Assembly: GCF_000242435.1 (NCBI RefSeq)
Contig: NZ_JH591188.1
Span: forward strand, 239,498 to 303,497
DNA: 64,000 nucleotides
Origin: Dialister succinatiphilus YIT 11850
GTDB lineage: Bacteria; Bacillota; Negativicutes; Veillonellales; Dialisteraceae
Reading direction: 5' to 3'
Position 1 is the first letter of the stretch, and every line of letters begins with the position of its first letter. Below, piece by piece: positions 167-47,939 of the stretch. The notes beneath the pieces are model-generated. The model was not told where the DNA came from. It saw nothing but the letters and a program-made list of their open reading frames with translations, and did not search any database. The translations under genes and the position numbers were made by a program.

Positions 167-511
167 TTTTCTGTTTACAAAGCCTGGACTTTCAAGGGGT
201 GCAGGGGATTTTTACCTGCGAAGTTTGAGTCTTATTATATAACATTCCTGTAAAAGAAAGGTAAAGGAAGGGGGAGTCAGACAGTGAGACGCTGCAAATG
301 GGCTGGAAGGCAGGAAAGGCATATGAGAAGCGGGGTGCAGGGCCCTGAGATTTCCTCTTTCCATGAGAACTTTCCTCCTTTAAAGGGATTATATAGACAG
401 AGAGAACTGAAAGGGCCCGGAAGGGGCGCCCGCCTCCCTGCCTGTTACGTGCACACACCTTATCAAGGGACAGGTGATGGAGACGGGAAGAACTTCCTCA
501 TATGAATCAGA
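167..511. other. Gene-free stretch
   Basis: I see no convincing coding frame between the IS4-like leader and the RNA candidate. Short open frames exist on both strands, but they lack ribosome-binding sites and recognisable content. An AT-rich segment at about 226-246 could hold a promoter, but no paired -35/-10 boxes stand out. Confidence 0.4.
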
Positions 512-539
512 TCTCTCTGACGCGTCGAAAACAACCTGT

Positions 540-706
540 AAAAACTCCTGAAGATGACCTGCCAGACATCCTGGTGGCAAATGGCTATACCAGTTCTTCC
601 TTGACGACACAGATATTCCGCTTAGGCGGCTGCCCCTGGCCGATTCATCGAAGCTGAACGCCTGAGCCCTACCGCGCATCAGCATGGGACGAATCAGGAG
701 TTTTTT
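540..706 (+). ncRNA. Structured RNA candidate, copy A (family unknown)
   Basis: This 167-nt stretch is bounded by a perfect 12-bp stem, AAAAACTCCTGA (540-551) against TCAGGAGTTTTT (694-705), with a T6 run at the 3' end. It has a homologue of equal length at 47381-47548. The outer thirds of the two copies are almost identical while the middle diverges, with paired changes in small stems. For example, the arm TGCCA becomes TGCTA opposite TGGCA. No frame is conserved between copies. The size and long closing stem recall 6S RNA or the raiA motif, but I cannot match the conserved core to either. The plus orientation is favoured by the U-run; minus is not excluded. It lies in a gene-free interval, so it is not evidently a leader of a neighbouring gene. 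Confidence 0.55.
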
Positions 707-3291: not shown

Positions 3292-4656
3292 ATGGGAATT
3301 CTGGATGTTTTGATGGATGTGGTGAAGCAGCCGGCGCTGATTGTGGGGCTGTTTTCTTTTATCGGCCTCATGGCTCTTCGGAAGCCTTTTCACAAGGTAC
3401 TGACAGGAACCCTTCGGCCGGTTCTGGGCTATATCATGATGATGGCCGGAGCCAATATCATTGTGGCCAATCTGGAGCCCCTGGGGCAGATGATTCATGA
3501 AGGCTTCCATATCACCGGCGTAGTGCCCAGCAATGAAGCCATCGTAGCTTCCGCTTCCCGCCTTCTGGGCACGGAAACCATGTTTATCCTGGTGGCAGGG
3601 CTCATGATGAACCTGGTCATTGCCCGGCTTACGAAATTCAAGTATGTGTTCCTCACGGTGCATCACAGCTTCTTCATGGCCTGCCTTCTGTCTGCCGTAC
3701 TGGGTACCATCGGCCTTTCCGGCGTGGAACTGGTGCTGGCGGGGGGGTTCCTTCTGGGGGCCTGGAGTTCCATATCACCGGCCATTGGCCAGAAATATAC
3801 GAACCGCGTCACCCACGGCGACCACATCGCCCTGGGCCACTTCGGCAGTCTGGCGTACTATATTTCCGCCTGGGTAGGTTCTAAGGCCGGCAAGGCGGAG
3901 GATAATATCGAATCCATGGAAATCCCGGAAAAGTGGGCTTTCCTGAAGGATACCAACGTGTCCACCGCCCTCACCATGATTGTCTTTTTCCTGCTGGCTG
4001 CCTTTGCCGCCGGCCCGGACTATGTATCCACAATTTCCCACGGCATGTCCCCGGTCATCTTCGCCATCATGGCGGGCCTTGAATTTGCCGTAGGCGTGGC
4101 GGTGGTAAGCAGCGGCATCAACATGATGCTGGGCGACCTCATCCCTGCTTTCAAAGGGGTATCGGAAAAGGTGATTCCCAATGCGGTACCTGCAGTGGAC
4201 TGCGTGGCTTTCTTCAACTATGCTCCTACAGCGGTGGTGCTGGGCTTTGTGTCCTCCTTCGTCGGCGGCGTACTGGGCATGCTCCTCCTGGGCTTTGCAG
4301 GCGGCGTTCTCATCGTTCCCGGTCTGGTGGCCCACTTCTTCTGCGGCGCTGCTGCCGGCATTTTCGGAAATGCCACCGGCGGCCGCCGGGGCGCCGCACT
4401 GGGGGCCTTCACCAACGGCCTCCTCATCACCTTTGCCGCCGCCCTTCTCATTCCTGTATTTGAAGGACTGGGCTTCAAAAATACCACCTTCGGCGATTTC
4501 GACTTCAACGTGGTAGGCATGGCCCTGTCCATGGCCTACCGTTTCCTGGGAACCTTCGGCATTTACGCCCTCATGGCCCTGGTGCTGGTGGTCCTGGTGG
4601 CACCGAATTTCATGAAGACAAAGAACCGGGTCATCAACCAGGACGAAGATACATAA
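3292..4656 (+). CDS. ulaA: PTS ascorbate-type IIC permease
   Basis: This 454-aa integral membrane protein has about 11 hydrophobic segments and closely follows the UlaA/SgaT family in length (about 460 aa). Conserved-looking stretches include THGDHIALGHFGSLAYY near residues 174-190, INMMLGDLIPAFKG near 275, and GNATGGRRGAALGAF near 355. In the family it moves L-ascorbate or a related sugar acid across the inner membrane while EIIB phosphorylates it. No EIIA, EIIB or ascorbate catabolic gene lies nearby, so it is either an orphan served by distant components or a non-phosphorylating carrier. AGAGGTAAGG precedes the ATG, and a palindrome lies 30 bp upstream. The gene is flanked by decayed PAS genes and a repeat block. 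Confidence 0.85.
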   Translation: MGILDVLMDVVKQPALIVGLFSFIGLMALRKPFHKVLTGTLRPVLGYIMMMAGANIIVANLEPLGQMIHEGFHITGVVPSNEAIVASASRLLGTETMFILVAGLMMNLVIARLTKFKYVFLTVHHSFFMACLLSAVLGTIGLSGVELVLAGGFLLGAWSSISPAIGQKYTNRVTHGDHIALGHFGSLAYYISAWVGSKAGKAEDNIESMEIPEKWAFLKDTNVSTALTMIVFFLLAAFAAGPDYVSTISHGMSPVIFAIMAGLEFAVGVAVVSSGINMMLGDLIPAFKGVSEKVIPNAVPAVDCVAFFNYAPTAVVLGFVSSFVGGVLGMLLLGFAGGVLIVPGLVAHFFCGAAAGIFGNATGGRRGAALGAFTNGLLITFAAALLIPVFEGLGFKNTTFGDFDFNVVGMALSMAYRFLGTFGIYALMALVLVVLVAPNFMKTKNRVINQDEDT

Positions 4657-33361: not shown

Positions 33362-33435
33362 GCGGGTGTAGTTCATCGGTAGAACGCCAGCTTCCCAAGC
33401 TGGACAGGAGGGTTCGACTCCCTTCATCCGCTCCA
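33362..33435 (+). tRNA. tRNA-Gly (anticodon CCC)
   Basis: This is a 74-nt cloverleaf with encoded CCA. The acceptor is GCGGGTG/CATCCGC with one G-T pair. The anticodon stem CCAGC/GCTGG encloses TTCCCAA, placing CCC at 34-36. The T-arm is GAGGG TTCGACT CCCTT. It is followed 12 nt later by a terminator, so it is transcribed alone. Confidence 0.97.
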
Positions 33436-45164: not shown

Positions 45165-45556
45165 TAATAGAGTATGCTATTTATGAAATTTATAAAGAAG
45201 AGCGTAATATTTTAGCTGCGGACTCGGAGAAACCAGATAAAATTTTTTTATATTGACCGGGAGCCATTTTTTATATCCAGCAGGAAATACGGAAAAACAG
45301 GGGAAAAACAGATACTTAGAGTGAGGTACATAGAGGCATACCATAGAGCGGAGTCCGGTTATTGCGGCATTTTTTCGGAAATGGTACCGTAGATACAGCC
45401 ACGGAAGAGCGGCCCCTCTTCCATGGTGGAAGGATAGTAAGAGAAAAAAGCAGGCAGAGGAAACACGGTCACTCGCGCAGACGCTTTTCATCTGAACTCC
45501 TGAACAACAAAAGGGCTCGGTTTTCTCTATTGTTTATTTCAAAGGAGCGAAGAACT
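45165..45556. other. Long gene-free leader of the porin gene
   Basis: It is AT-rich to about 45260, then GC-richer. TTGACC at 45253-45258 has no matching -10 at normal spacing, so the porin promoter is not located. A hairpin around CCTCTTCCATGGTGGAAGG (45415-45433) is visible. No gene is seen. Confidence 0.35.
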
Positions 45557-46912
45557 ATGAAAAAGATTCTCGCAATCGCAGCTGCAGCTGCACTCACCGC
45601 TGGCGTATCCGCATTCGCCGCAAATCCATTCTCCGATGTTTCCACCGATGACTGGGCTTACCAGGCAGTATCCGACCTCTCCGACCAGGGCGTTGTAGAA
45701 GGCTATCCGGACGGCACCTTCAAAGGCGAAAGAAACATTACCCGTTATGAACTGGCTCAGATCATTGCCCGCCTCATGGCAAAAGAAGACCAGCTGAACG
45801 CTGAACAGCGTGCAACCCTCGACAAACTGGCTGGCGAATACGCTGACGAACTGGCTAACCTGGGCGTTCGCGTTTCCAACCTGGAAAAGAAAGTCGGCAA
45901 CCTCTACTGGTCCGGCGATGCTCGTATGCGTTATAAAGACAACAGCTATGACAAAGCTGATGGATGGGATGGCCGTATGAGAATCAACGTTAAGGGTCAG
46001 GTTAATGACTCCACCACCATCAATGGCCGTCTCACCTACAACATGAACTTCAAAGGCAACGATGGCAACAATGCCGGCAAAGTCACCATTAAAGATGGCG
46101 ATGACAGCGCAAGTTTTGGCGACGACGACAATGGCGTGTACATGGATATCCTCAATGTTAAACATCAGTTTGGCAAAGACGTTGCTGTAACCCTTGGCCG
46201 TTATGCAAACAACTTTGGCAACCAGGGAAGCTGGCGTTTCGGCGACTCCCATGACTTCGACGGCGCTGAACTGTCCTATGGTGCTAATAAGTTCAACGCA
46301 GCTGTAGGCTTTGGCCGTTTCCAGACCAACTACAACAGCAATACTACTTACACAATTGATGATAATGGCGAGATTACCAAGACAGATGCAAACGCTCTGA
46401 TTGATGATCAGGAAGCTCTGTATGTAAAGGCTGGTTATGACTTCAACTTCGCTAAACTGACTGCTGATTATCTGAAGTTTGAAAACAACAATGACAAACT
46501 GAATGATGAACTCTACGGTGTCGACCTTGCTATTCCATTCGGCAAGGCTTGGAACCTTCAGGGCGAATATGTAAAGAATACCACCACTGACTACTCTAAC
46601 GATGATGCTTGGAATGTTGGCCTCCAGTATTCAACCCTGAACTGGAAGAAACCTGGCACCTTCGGTCTGGGAGTTTGGTACAATGATATCGGTTCTGCTA
46701 CTTACCTCGGTGGCTCTGGCCTCAGCACCAACATTCTTGATGGAATTGCTGCTAACAAAGGTGATAATGAACTGAAGTTCTGGAATGTTATCGGCGATGT
46801 AACACTCCTGAAGAACGTAAACCTCCACGCTGAATATGCATTCGGTGCGGACCTTGATAAGGGCTCCGATCCGGATGACGCTTGGACCGTTTCCCTGAAC
46901 TACAAATTCTAA
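45557..46912 (+). CDS. Outer-membrane porin with SLH domain (OmpM-like)
   Basis: This 451-aa protein has a signal peptide (MKKILAIAAAAALTAGVSAFA) followed by one SLH domain (NPFSDVSTDDWAYQAVSDLSDQG ... ITRYELAQIIARLMA, about 23-75), a short coiled coil (75-112), and a beta-barrel ending in Phe (NYKF). In Negativicutes such proteins are abundant porins whose SLH domain grips the polyamine-modified peptidoglycan and ties the outer membrane to the wall. It is the clearest sign of a diderm Firmicute. AAAGGAG lies 9 nt before the ATG. Codon use is strongly biased, as expected for high expression. Confidence 0.95.
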   Translation: MKKILAIAAAAALTAGVSAFAANPFSDVSTDDWAYQAVSDLSDQGVVEGYPDGTFKGERNITRYELAQIIARLMAKEDQLNAEQRATLDKLAGEYADELANLGVRVSNLEKKVGNLYWSGDARMRYKDNSYDKADGWDGRMRINVKGQVNDSTTINGRLTYNMNFKGNDGNNAGKVTIKDGDDSASFGDDDNGVYMDILNVKHQFGKDVAVTLGRYANNFGNQGSWRFGDSHDFDGAELSYGANKFNAAVGFGRFQTNYNSNTTYTIDDNGEITKTDANALIDDQEALYVKAGYDFNFAKLTADYLKFENNNDKLNDELYGVDLAIPFGKAWNLQGEYVKNTTTDYSNDDAWNVGLQYSTLNWKKPGTFGLGVWYNDIGSATYLGGSGLSTNILDGIAANKGDNELKFWNVIGDVTLLKNVNLHAEYAFGADLDKGSDPDDAWTVSLNYKF

Positions 46913-47059: not shown

Positions 47060-47380
47060 AAGGTGGGCGCCTGCGGCGCCAGTATGAATAAAAGGGGAAC
47101 GGCTCAAACCCTTGCGTCCCTCAAGGGGAAATGAGGAATGGGGGCAGGAGATAGTGAGCCATATGCTCTTTGCACCATCCTTTGAACTCTCTGAACCCTT
47201 GTGAACACTTTTCACTAAAATGAGATAACTTGTCCCACCCACGGATTATATAAGCAGAGAGGCGAAAAGGCCTGGCAAAAGTCCTTCATCATCCCGCGAA
47301 GCGCTCTATCCATGGAAGCGGGAAAGTAAGGAACGGAGCCTTCATGAATTTCACCTCTCCGGCGCGCCGAAAAACTCTAT

Positions 47381-47548
47381 AAAAACTCCTGAAGATGACC
47401 TGCTAGACATCCTGGTGGCAATATAGCGTACTTTTTCTTCTTTGACGACACAGGCATTCCGTCTCAGCGGCTACCCCTGGCCGATTCACTGAAGAAGGTA
47501 ACCTTGAGGCCCTACCGCGCATCAGCATGGGACGAATCAGGAGTTTTT
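47381..47548 (+). ncRNA. Structured RNA candidate, copy B (family unknown)
   Basis: This 168-nt homologue of 540-706 has the same closing stem, AAAAACTCCTGA (47381-47392) against TCAGGAGTTTTT (47537-47548). The first 35 nt differ from copy A by one base. The last 38 nt before the terminal T-run are identical to it. The middle differs at about 40% of positions, keeping CTTCYTTGACGACACAG and CCCCTGGCCGATTCA. An upstream 8-bp palindrome also changes in a paired way (GACGCGTC in A, GGCGCGCC in B, 47361-47368). Short dyads and lack of a shared reading frame favour RNA. It is followed at 47573 by half of a CTGTGAAGA terminator. Confidence 0.55.
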
Positions 47549-47682
47549 GTGATGAATGAAAAGGAAAAAGGGGCTGTGAAGAAATGATTGATTTCTCCTC
47601 GGATAGTTAGACATTGGGCGGCAGACGCCTTATTATAGGTCTGCAAGGAACAAATTGACGCAAACGCTCACCCCGCTTCATT

Positions 47683-47830: not shown

Positions 47831-47891
47831 AATGCGGAGAACAGCATACTGTTATTTTTGGCAATTTTCTGAGTTTATAACCGAGGTGGAA

Positions 47892-47939
47892 AAGGGGCTG
47901 TGAAAAAATGATTAAACATTTTTTCACAGCCCCTCTTTT
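47892..47939 (+). terminator. Long hairpin terminator, CTGTGAA family
   Basis: AAAGGGGCTGTGAAAAAATG pairs with CATTTTTTCACAGCCCC, followed by TCTTTT. It may be the terminator once used by the upstream RNA, now separated by the inserted element. Confidence 0.8.

Follow-up and report, generated by a model that had tools for sequence, protein, structure and literature searches.

A Dialister-specific family of structured non-coding RNA genes with self-complementary loops that change sequence between copies

What kind of element is the 167-nt segment, closed by a long inverted repeat, at positions 540-706 of the 64,000-nt stretch of Dialister DNA analyzed here (the window; G000:C2:239498-303497, where G000 is the 2.5-Mb genome from which it comes)? 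A preliminary description had proposed a structured RNA present in two diverged copies. Both copies, at 540-706 and 47381-47548, were found where it had placed them, and the 12-bp closing stem (AAAAACTCCTGA/TCAGGAGTTTTT) is perfect in each. An identical 3′ stretch of 35 nt ahead of the T-run and a divergent center were also observed.

At the gathering cut-off, Rfam 15 returned only a tRNA for the window (33362-33432). Only chance matches were obtained when both copies were searched at E values up to 10, and the other subfamilies described below gave only a neighboring T-box; the earlier failure to match the element to a known RNA was thus upheld, with no Rfam family at threshold. A hammerhead-like match at 511-569 was discarded at 15.6 bits, far under the cut-off of 34, and 6S RNA (RF00013) was rejected on the basis that the copies did not match it and that the genome has a separate 6S gene (G000:C1:863910-864092, minus strand, 71.3 bits). 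The T-box leaders (RF00230; L261:1149-1392 and L233:1150-1393, both minus strand, 103.6 and 95.7 bits) lie on the strand opposite to the RNA gene, near the metH-locus copy, in both G000 and a second genome of the genus, G005. The open-access literature searched, the coverage of which was incomplete, yielded no description of an RNA of this kind from Dialister.

Thirteen copies were aligned together with their flanks. Given that conservation in this alignment begins far upstream, with a promoter ~150 nt ahead of position 540, the 167 nt originally taken as the full extent are the 3′ arm of a conserved unit of ~310 nt. In all 13 copies, a -35-like TGAnA, 18 nt, GACTAT or GATTAT and then CAGAGAGG follow one another in this order, 130-153 nt ahead of the 3′ arm (hereafter the rod), and upstream of the -35, most pairs of copies have unrelated sequences. 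Across the wider family, the spacing is mostly 17-18 nt. Of 29 members inspected, most match the pattern TGAnA-n16..20-[GTA]A[CT]T[AG]T perfectly and most of the rest match it with a single mismatch; it is missing from one. The promoter is sigma-A-like, and to judge from its sequence, each copy is probably transcribed from its own. The palindrome that the preliminary description had placed upstream does change between the copies, from GACGCGTC to CGGCGCGCCG, and stays palindromic; it is, however, part of the RNA rather than an outside element. The features of the two window copies are as follows, with bit scores from covariance models of the rod (R1) and of the 5′ domain (R3).

364-392, plus strand: promoter of copy 1, -35-like TGAGAA at 364-369 and -10-like GATTAT at 387-392
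398-706, plus strand: RNA of copy 1, ~310 nt, comprising the 5′ domain at 398-527 (R3, 39.4 bits, E = 6.9e-07) and the 3′ rod (R1, 193.5 bits)
400-405, plus strand: left arm of helix P1 in copy 1, GAGAGA, with its partner TCTCTC at 512-517
441-474, plus strand: P3 hairpin of copy 1, CCTGT (441-445) with ACAGG (470-474), and apical loop
449-454, plus strand: site 1 of copy 1, self-complementary loop hexamer GTGCAC
519-526, plus strand: site 4 of copy 1, palindrome GACGCGTC
540-706, plus strand: 3′ rod of copy 1, closed by AAAAACTCCTGA/TCAGGAGTTTTT, with variable interior and U-run; a putative intrinsic-terminator hairpin
47221-47249, plus strand: promoter of copy 2, TGAGAT at 47221-47226 and GATTAT at 47244-47249
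47255-47548, plus strand: RNA of copy 2, comprising the 5′ domain at 47255-47369 (R3, 103.6 bits, E = 1.6e-21) and the rod (R1, 176.3 bits)
47257-47262, plus strand: left arm of P1 in copy 2, GAGAGG, with its partner CCTCTC at 47354-47359
47292-47323, plus strand: P3 hairpin of copy 2, TCCCGC (47292-47297) with GCGGGA (47318-47323)
47300-47305, plus strand: site 1 of copy 2, AGCGCT
47309-47316, plus strand: palindrome TCCATGGA in the P3 hairpin of copy 2
47360-47369, plus strand: site 4 of copy 2, palindrome CGGCGCGCCG
47381-47548, plus strand: 3′ rod of copy 2, from sequence comparison, BLAST and R1

Directly upstream of copy 2 lies a gene for a 516-amino acid S-layer-homology (SLH) protein (45362-46912), presumably a porin of the OmpM type. 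A terminator-like hairpin that follows copy 2 (GGGGCTGTGAAGAAATGATT..., 47561-47594) looks interrupted, and a second, complete version is found ~320 nt further on (47887-47935), as would be expected had a repeat element entered between the two.

Copies of the 540-706 rod type were found by BLAST 11 times in G000 (82-100% identity) and once each in G005 and in Dialister sp. UBA7295 (G003; contig DKQZ01000041.1, 75% complete). A weak model match led to a copy that shares the 5′ domain and the stem but has an entirely different rod of 105 nt, and additional subfamilies were collected by BLAST with several 5′ domains and with covariance models R2 and then R3. With R3, 21 loci were assigned in G000 (one of which, C2:133595, has lost the rod), five in G005 and at least three in G003, and the copy number of two first proposed was therefore a considerable underestimate. 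The rods of the subfamilies are of the AAAAACTCCTGA.. type, of the AAAAACTTCCTGAAAT.. type, or of a different kind followed by a separate terminator; the 5′ architecture is common to all.

Dialister is placed in the Veillonellales, Negativicutes, and an R1 search of 62 genomes across this order gave matches confined to three Dialister genomes. An order-wide signature pattern likewise recovered the family architecture only in the same Dialister genomes, the remaining matches resembling chance and lying near control counts. R3 matches in other genera look like coding sequence, as do those in G010 and G011 and the weak ones in G003 (L439 and L441), and were rejected. No R3 loci were present in three Dialister genomes that are 99% complete (G001, G002 and G004), and the family is thus not essential to the genus. 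We consider it very probable that the element at 540-706 belongs to a Dialister-specific family of structured non-coding RNA genes; such a family would be new for this genus, which is common in the human gut, and is entirely absent from current catalogues.

The 5′ domain folds into P1 (GAGAGG/CCTCTC), a variable P2 and P3, which closes an apical loop, and a short palindromic hairpin follows. The arms of P1 change in concert across members (GAGAGG/CCTCTC, GAGAGA/TCTCTC, GAGGGA/TCCCTC, GAGAAG/CTTCTC and TAGAGG/CCTCTA). With arms located by eye, 12 distinct P1 arm pairs were 97% paired (73% when shuffled) and 13 distinct P3 arm pairs were 94% paired (64% when shuffled), values reached in 0 of 5000 shuffles in either case. 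In the 21-member alignment (A9), whose pairing figures lean towards structure because it was fitted to its own model, 88% of cells were paired compared with 70.7% after shuffling, both positions had changed in 18 of the 22 pairs, and a covariation score of 0.471 was obtained, compared with 0.196 for shuffled columns and 0.10-0.17 with partners slid. Given that the P1 and P3 arms and the site centers considered below were picked by eye and that the alignment was model-fitted, the shuffle counts flatter the case; the members are, moreover, related, such that events are fewer than sequences and the counts are not probabilities. The rods fold as a single long hairpin with compensatory changes and end in the U-run, their interior varying between subfamilies, and their covariation is more modest (0.121 compared with 0.093 shuffled and 0.03-0.06 in slid controls).

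A cis-regulatory leader or riboswitch would be expected at a fixed position ahead of a co-directional coding gene. The neighbors of the RNA were found to differ at every locus, in agreement with the preliminary description, which had seen no leader role. It had also seen no shared open frame, and one- and two-base indels in the rod exclude one on either strand. In several copies, CCATGG is followed by ATG...TGA frames of 11-15 codons, and an open frame of ~76 codons is present in L006/L045, as might be expected of a small-protein gene or of a type I toxin-antitoxin unit with a short open reading frame inside. Neither start, stop nor frame is kept between orthologues, however (B3/B4, L003, L010 and L011), and the one-base indels in the rod also argue against such a gene, which we consider highly improbable.

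Each of the five G005 copies has a G000 copy at the same locus; the genes at these loci are taken to be those for ADP-ribosylglycohydrolase, metH, peptidase U32, sucC/terC and uspA. Between the two genomes, 5′ domains at the metH and U32 loci are just 59-70% identical in all columns, with the architecture kept. The L006/L045 locus is common to G003, where the unit is 98-99% identical, and given that orthologous intergenic regions of G003 and G004 are without the RNA, loci have been gained or lost within the genus. Some pairs (L004/L046) have similar rods and dissimilar 5′ domains, which suggests exchange between paralogues. Such same-locus conservation between species, the rod covariation, the stronger covariation of the 5′ domain, the shared promoter and the lack of an Rfam match together bear out the functional RNA originally proposed. 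Two further features of the surroundings were observed. A stretch of ~480 nt on the 3′ side of the RNA is ~82% shared between loci of G000 (L005, L008 and partly L007) and G005 (L046), at about +190 to +690 from the rod start (L060, L063, L046 and L062), and at the peptidase U32 locus, the G005 RNA gene is directly followed by a TAGTGTAC tandem repeat (L420, ~3330-3430; G005:C171).

The dispersal of the copies, the homology that in some pairs is sharply bounded by the -35 on one side and the T-run on the other, and the orthologous sites of G003 and G004 that lack the RNA would also be explained by a non-autonomous, MITE-like mobile element, of which the 12-bp inverted repeat would be the terminal repeat and the structure a by-product. 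Mobility of this kind is unlikely given that the inverted repeat encloses no more than the rod and leaves out the first ~150 nt of the conserved unit, and that all five G005 copies occupy G000 loci. Target-site duplications were not found (mean shared flank word, 5.32 compared with 5.31 in the control), and searches of phages and plasmids gave no match. Furthermore, covarying helices and the exchange of one palindrome for another are not what neutral decay would produce. Viral contigs that matched the CTGGCCGATTCAYYGAA pattern in an unspecific scan of genome contigs were not homologues by model R1, and no viral contig carried the exact subfamily signature; the matches listed for the CTGGCCGATTCAYYGAA and GACTAT-ATCCATGGA pattern scans were a part of all matches.

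The 5′ domains are rich in palindromes. Perfect palindromes of 8 nt or longer numbered 54 in representative 5′ domains, compared with 10.1 ± 3.1 in dinucleotide shuffles, whereas the rods of the same RNAs contained 9 against an expected 14.3, and the excess in the 5′ domain is therefore not an effect of base composition. Site 1, located in the P3 loop immediately ahead of a mini-hairpin, is a 6-nt palindrome in 19 of 21 representative members (L003 and L261 lack the full palindrome) against a background of 10%. It occurs in six versions (GTGCAC, GCGCGC, AGCGCT, GGCGCC, TGCGCA and GGGCCC), and its predicted unpaired probability is mostly 0.6-0.85. Site 4, which follows P1, occurs as CGGCGCGCCG, TGGCGCGCCA, CGACGCGTCG, CGGTGCACCG and TCGGTACCGA and also as TCAGCCGGCTGA, ACAGCCGGCTGT, GGCCGGCC, TTGCCGGCAA and TTCAGTGCACTGAA. 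All 12 distinct versions tested have a self-complementary inner 4 nt (CGCG, UGCA, GUAC or CCGG), compared with 47% in shuffles, and 0 of 20000 shuffles did as well; in L069, the site is degraded. A simple hairpin of 3-5 bp is an alternative reading of site 4. Other palindromes recur at fixed places, namely AGGCCT or GGGCCC near the 5′ end, TCCATGGA, and TTCATGAA or TCATATGA; those containing CAUG could also pair within one molecule. Intramolecular pairing of site 1 with site 4 was rejected, as the two palindromes are not mutually complementary in most copies (in L006, GCGCGC and CGGTGCACCG).

Palindromes are inherently two-fold symmetric as DNA sites, and these cluster just downstream of a promoter. 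They might thus act in DNA, as targets of dimeric proteins (operators, or sites of methylation or restriction), the RNA being incidental. This is somewhat less probable still than a mobile element, given that the sequences differ between copies, as sites of one protein would not, that the intervening P1-P3 helices covary as RNA, and that the sites fall in predicted RNA loops.

The main rival is a conventional multicopy small RNA family with incidental palindromes; a transposon, a cluster of DNA operators and a small-protein gene fit worse. The palindromes of ordinary trans-acting small RNAs would be local hairpins or protein-binding motifs, with loops that pair with mRNAs and no obligatory dimerization. 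Standalone genes with a promoter and a terminator-like 3′ end are consistent with such a family, as are many paralogues with variable parts, known from multicopy small RNAs, and the conserved AUCCAUGGA and pyrimidine-rich single strands might contact start codons or Shine-Dalgarno sites. A hairpin, however, needs no self-complementary tetraloop, yet all four types of site 4 center are self-complementary; UUCAUGAA and GUGCAC are unable to form stable hairpins alone, and the excess of palindromes is limited to the 5′ domain. We regard ordinary trans action as a possible but distinctly less probable account. Given that a hairpin does not require a self-complementary loop and that adjacent bases are unable to pair within one chain, the natural partner of each site is the same site in another molecule. 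At sites 1 and 4, the loop palindromes switch sequence and stay self-complementary, the behavior expected of homo-oligomeric RNAs; palindromic tetranucleotide and dinucleotide switches have been read as evidence of symmetric kissing loops both for OLE, in which L9.3 switches from GGCC to GAUC or AGCU, and for GOLLD, which switches from GC to CG (Kretsch et al. 2025; PMC12286853).

The gene family, its promoter, the P1 and P3 helices, the retained self-complementarity and the conservation at the same loci in two species are computational observations. That palindromic loops are always able to pair with an identical loop suggests that the RNAs act by binding copies of themselves, and we assign a probability of roughly 0.55 to a working mechanism, deduced from sequence, of homodimerization or higher assembly through these loops. 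Each standalone copy of ~300 nt would be transcribed from its own sigma-A-like promoter with the shared -35/-10 pair. P1, P2 and P3 of the 5′ domain would form one long hairpin, with the self-complementary hexamer and the mini-hairpin displayed in its apical loop; a second, fully palindromic short hairpin would come next and then the rod, which would close on the U-run and serve as terminator and stabilizer, its interior being subfamily-specific. Two copies of one RNA, or paralogues with the same palindrome, could then dock by symmetric loop-loop pairing, and paralogues with different palindromes would avoid mutual pairing. The working form would be a homodimer or higher oligomer, which might regulate in trans or hold a protein or mRNA on the variable rod. 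More tentatively, ~20 paralogous RNAs per cell whose palindrome codes differ in at least two loops may constitute orthogonal, RNA-only self-assembly in which each RNA pairs only with its own kind and the variable rod is cargo or address, an idea we think doubtful at present. To our knowledge, the homo-oligomeric RNAs found in nature so far come mainly from a handful of very large classes. If the reading is correct, a compact family such as this one (~300-nt RNAs, ~20 paralogues in a genome, self-complementary loops that can be swapped) would provide a small, testable system for RNA self-recognition, and the pattern of covariation makes the dimerization claim directly testable with short synthetic RNAs.

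Multicopy families of bacterial small RNAs such as Sib/QUAD and LhrC have several intergenic paralogues with their own promoters in one genome, as does the Dialister family; the latter differs in that no antisense toxin open reading frame was found, in its many more copies and in having subfamilies that are alike in architecture only. With 6S RNA, it shares a long rod-like hairpin and a similar size. OLE, ROOL and GOLLD (PMC12286853) are likewise standalone structured bacterial RNAs with switching palindromes, but they are much larger and match the Dialister family neither in sequence nor in Rfam, and the Dialister RNAs are short, with ~21 paralogues per genome and several palindromic sites. 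The HIV-1 DIS kissing loop (PMC7357161) also presents a GC-rich self-complementary hexamer in an apical loop; GUGCAC, the dimerization palindrome of HIV-1, is identical to one version of site 1, and flanking purines are found in several Dialister members. The DIS is a packaging element of a retroviral genome and is not homologous, whereas the Dialister loop runs on into the AUCCAUGGA mini-hairpin and carries a hexamer that varies among paralogues.
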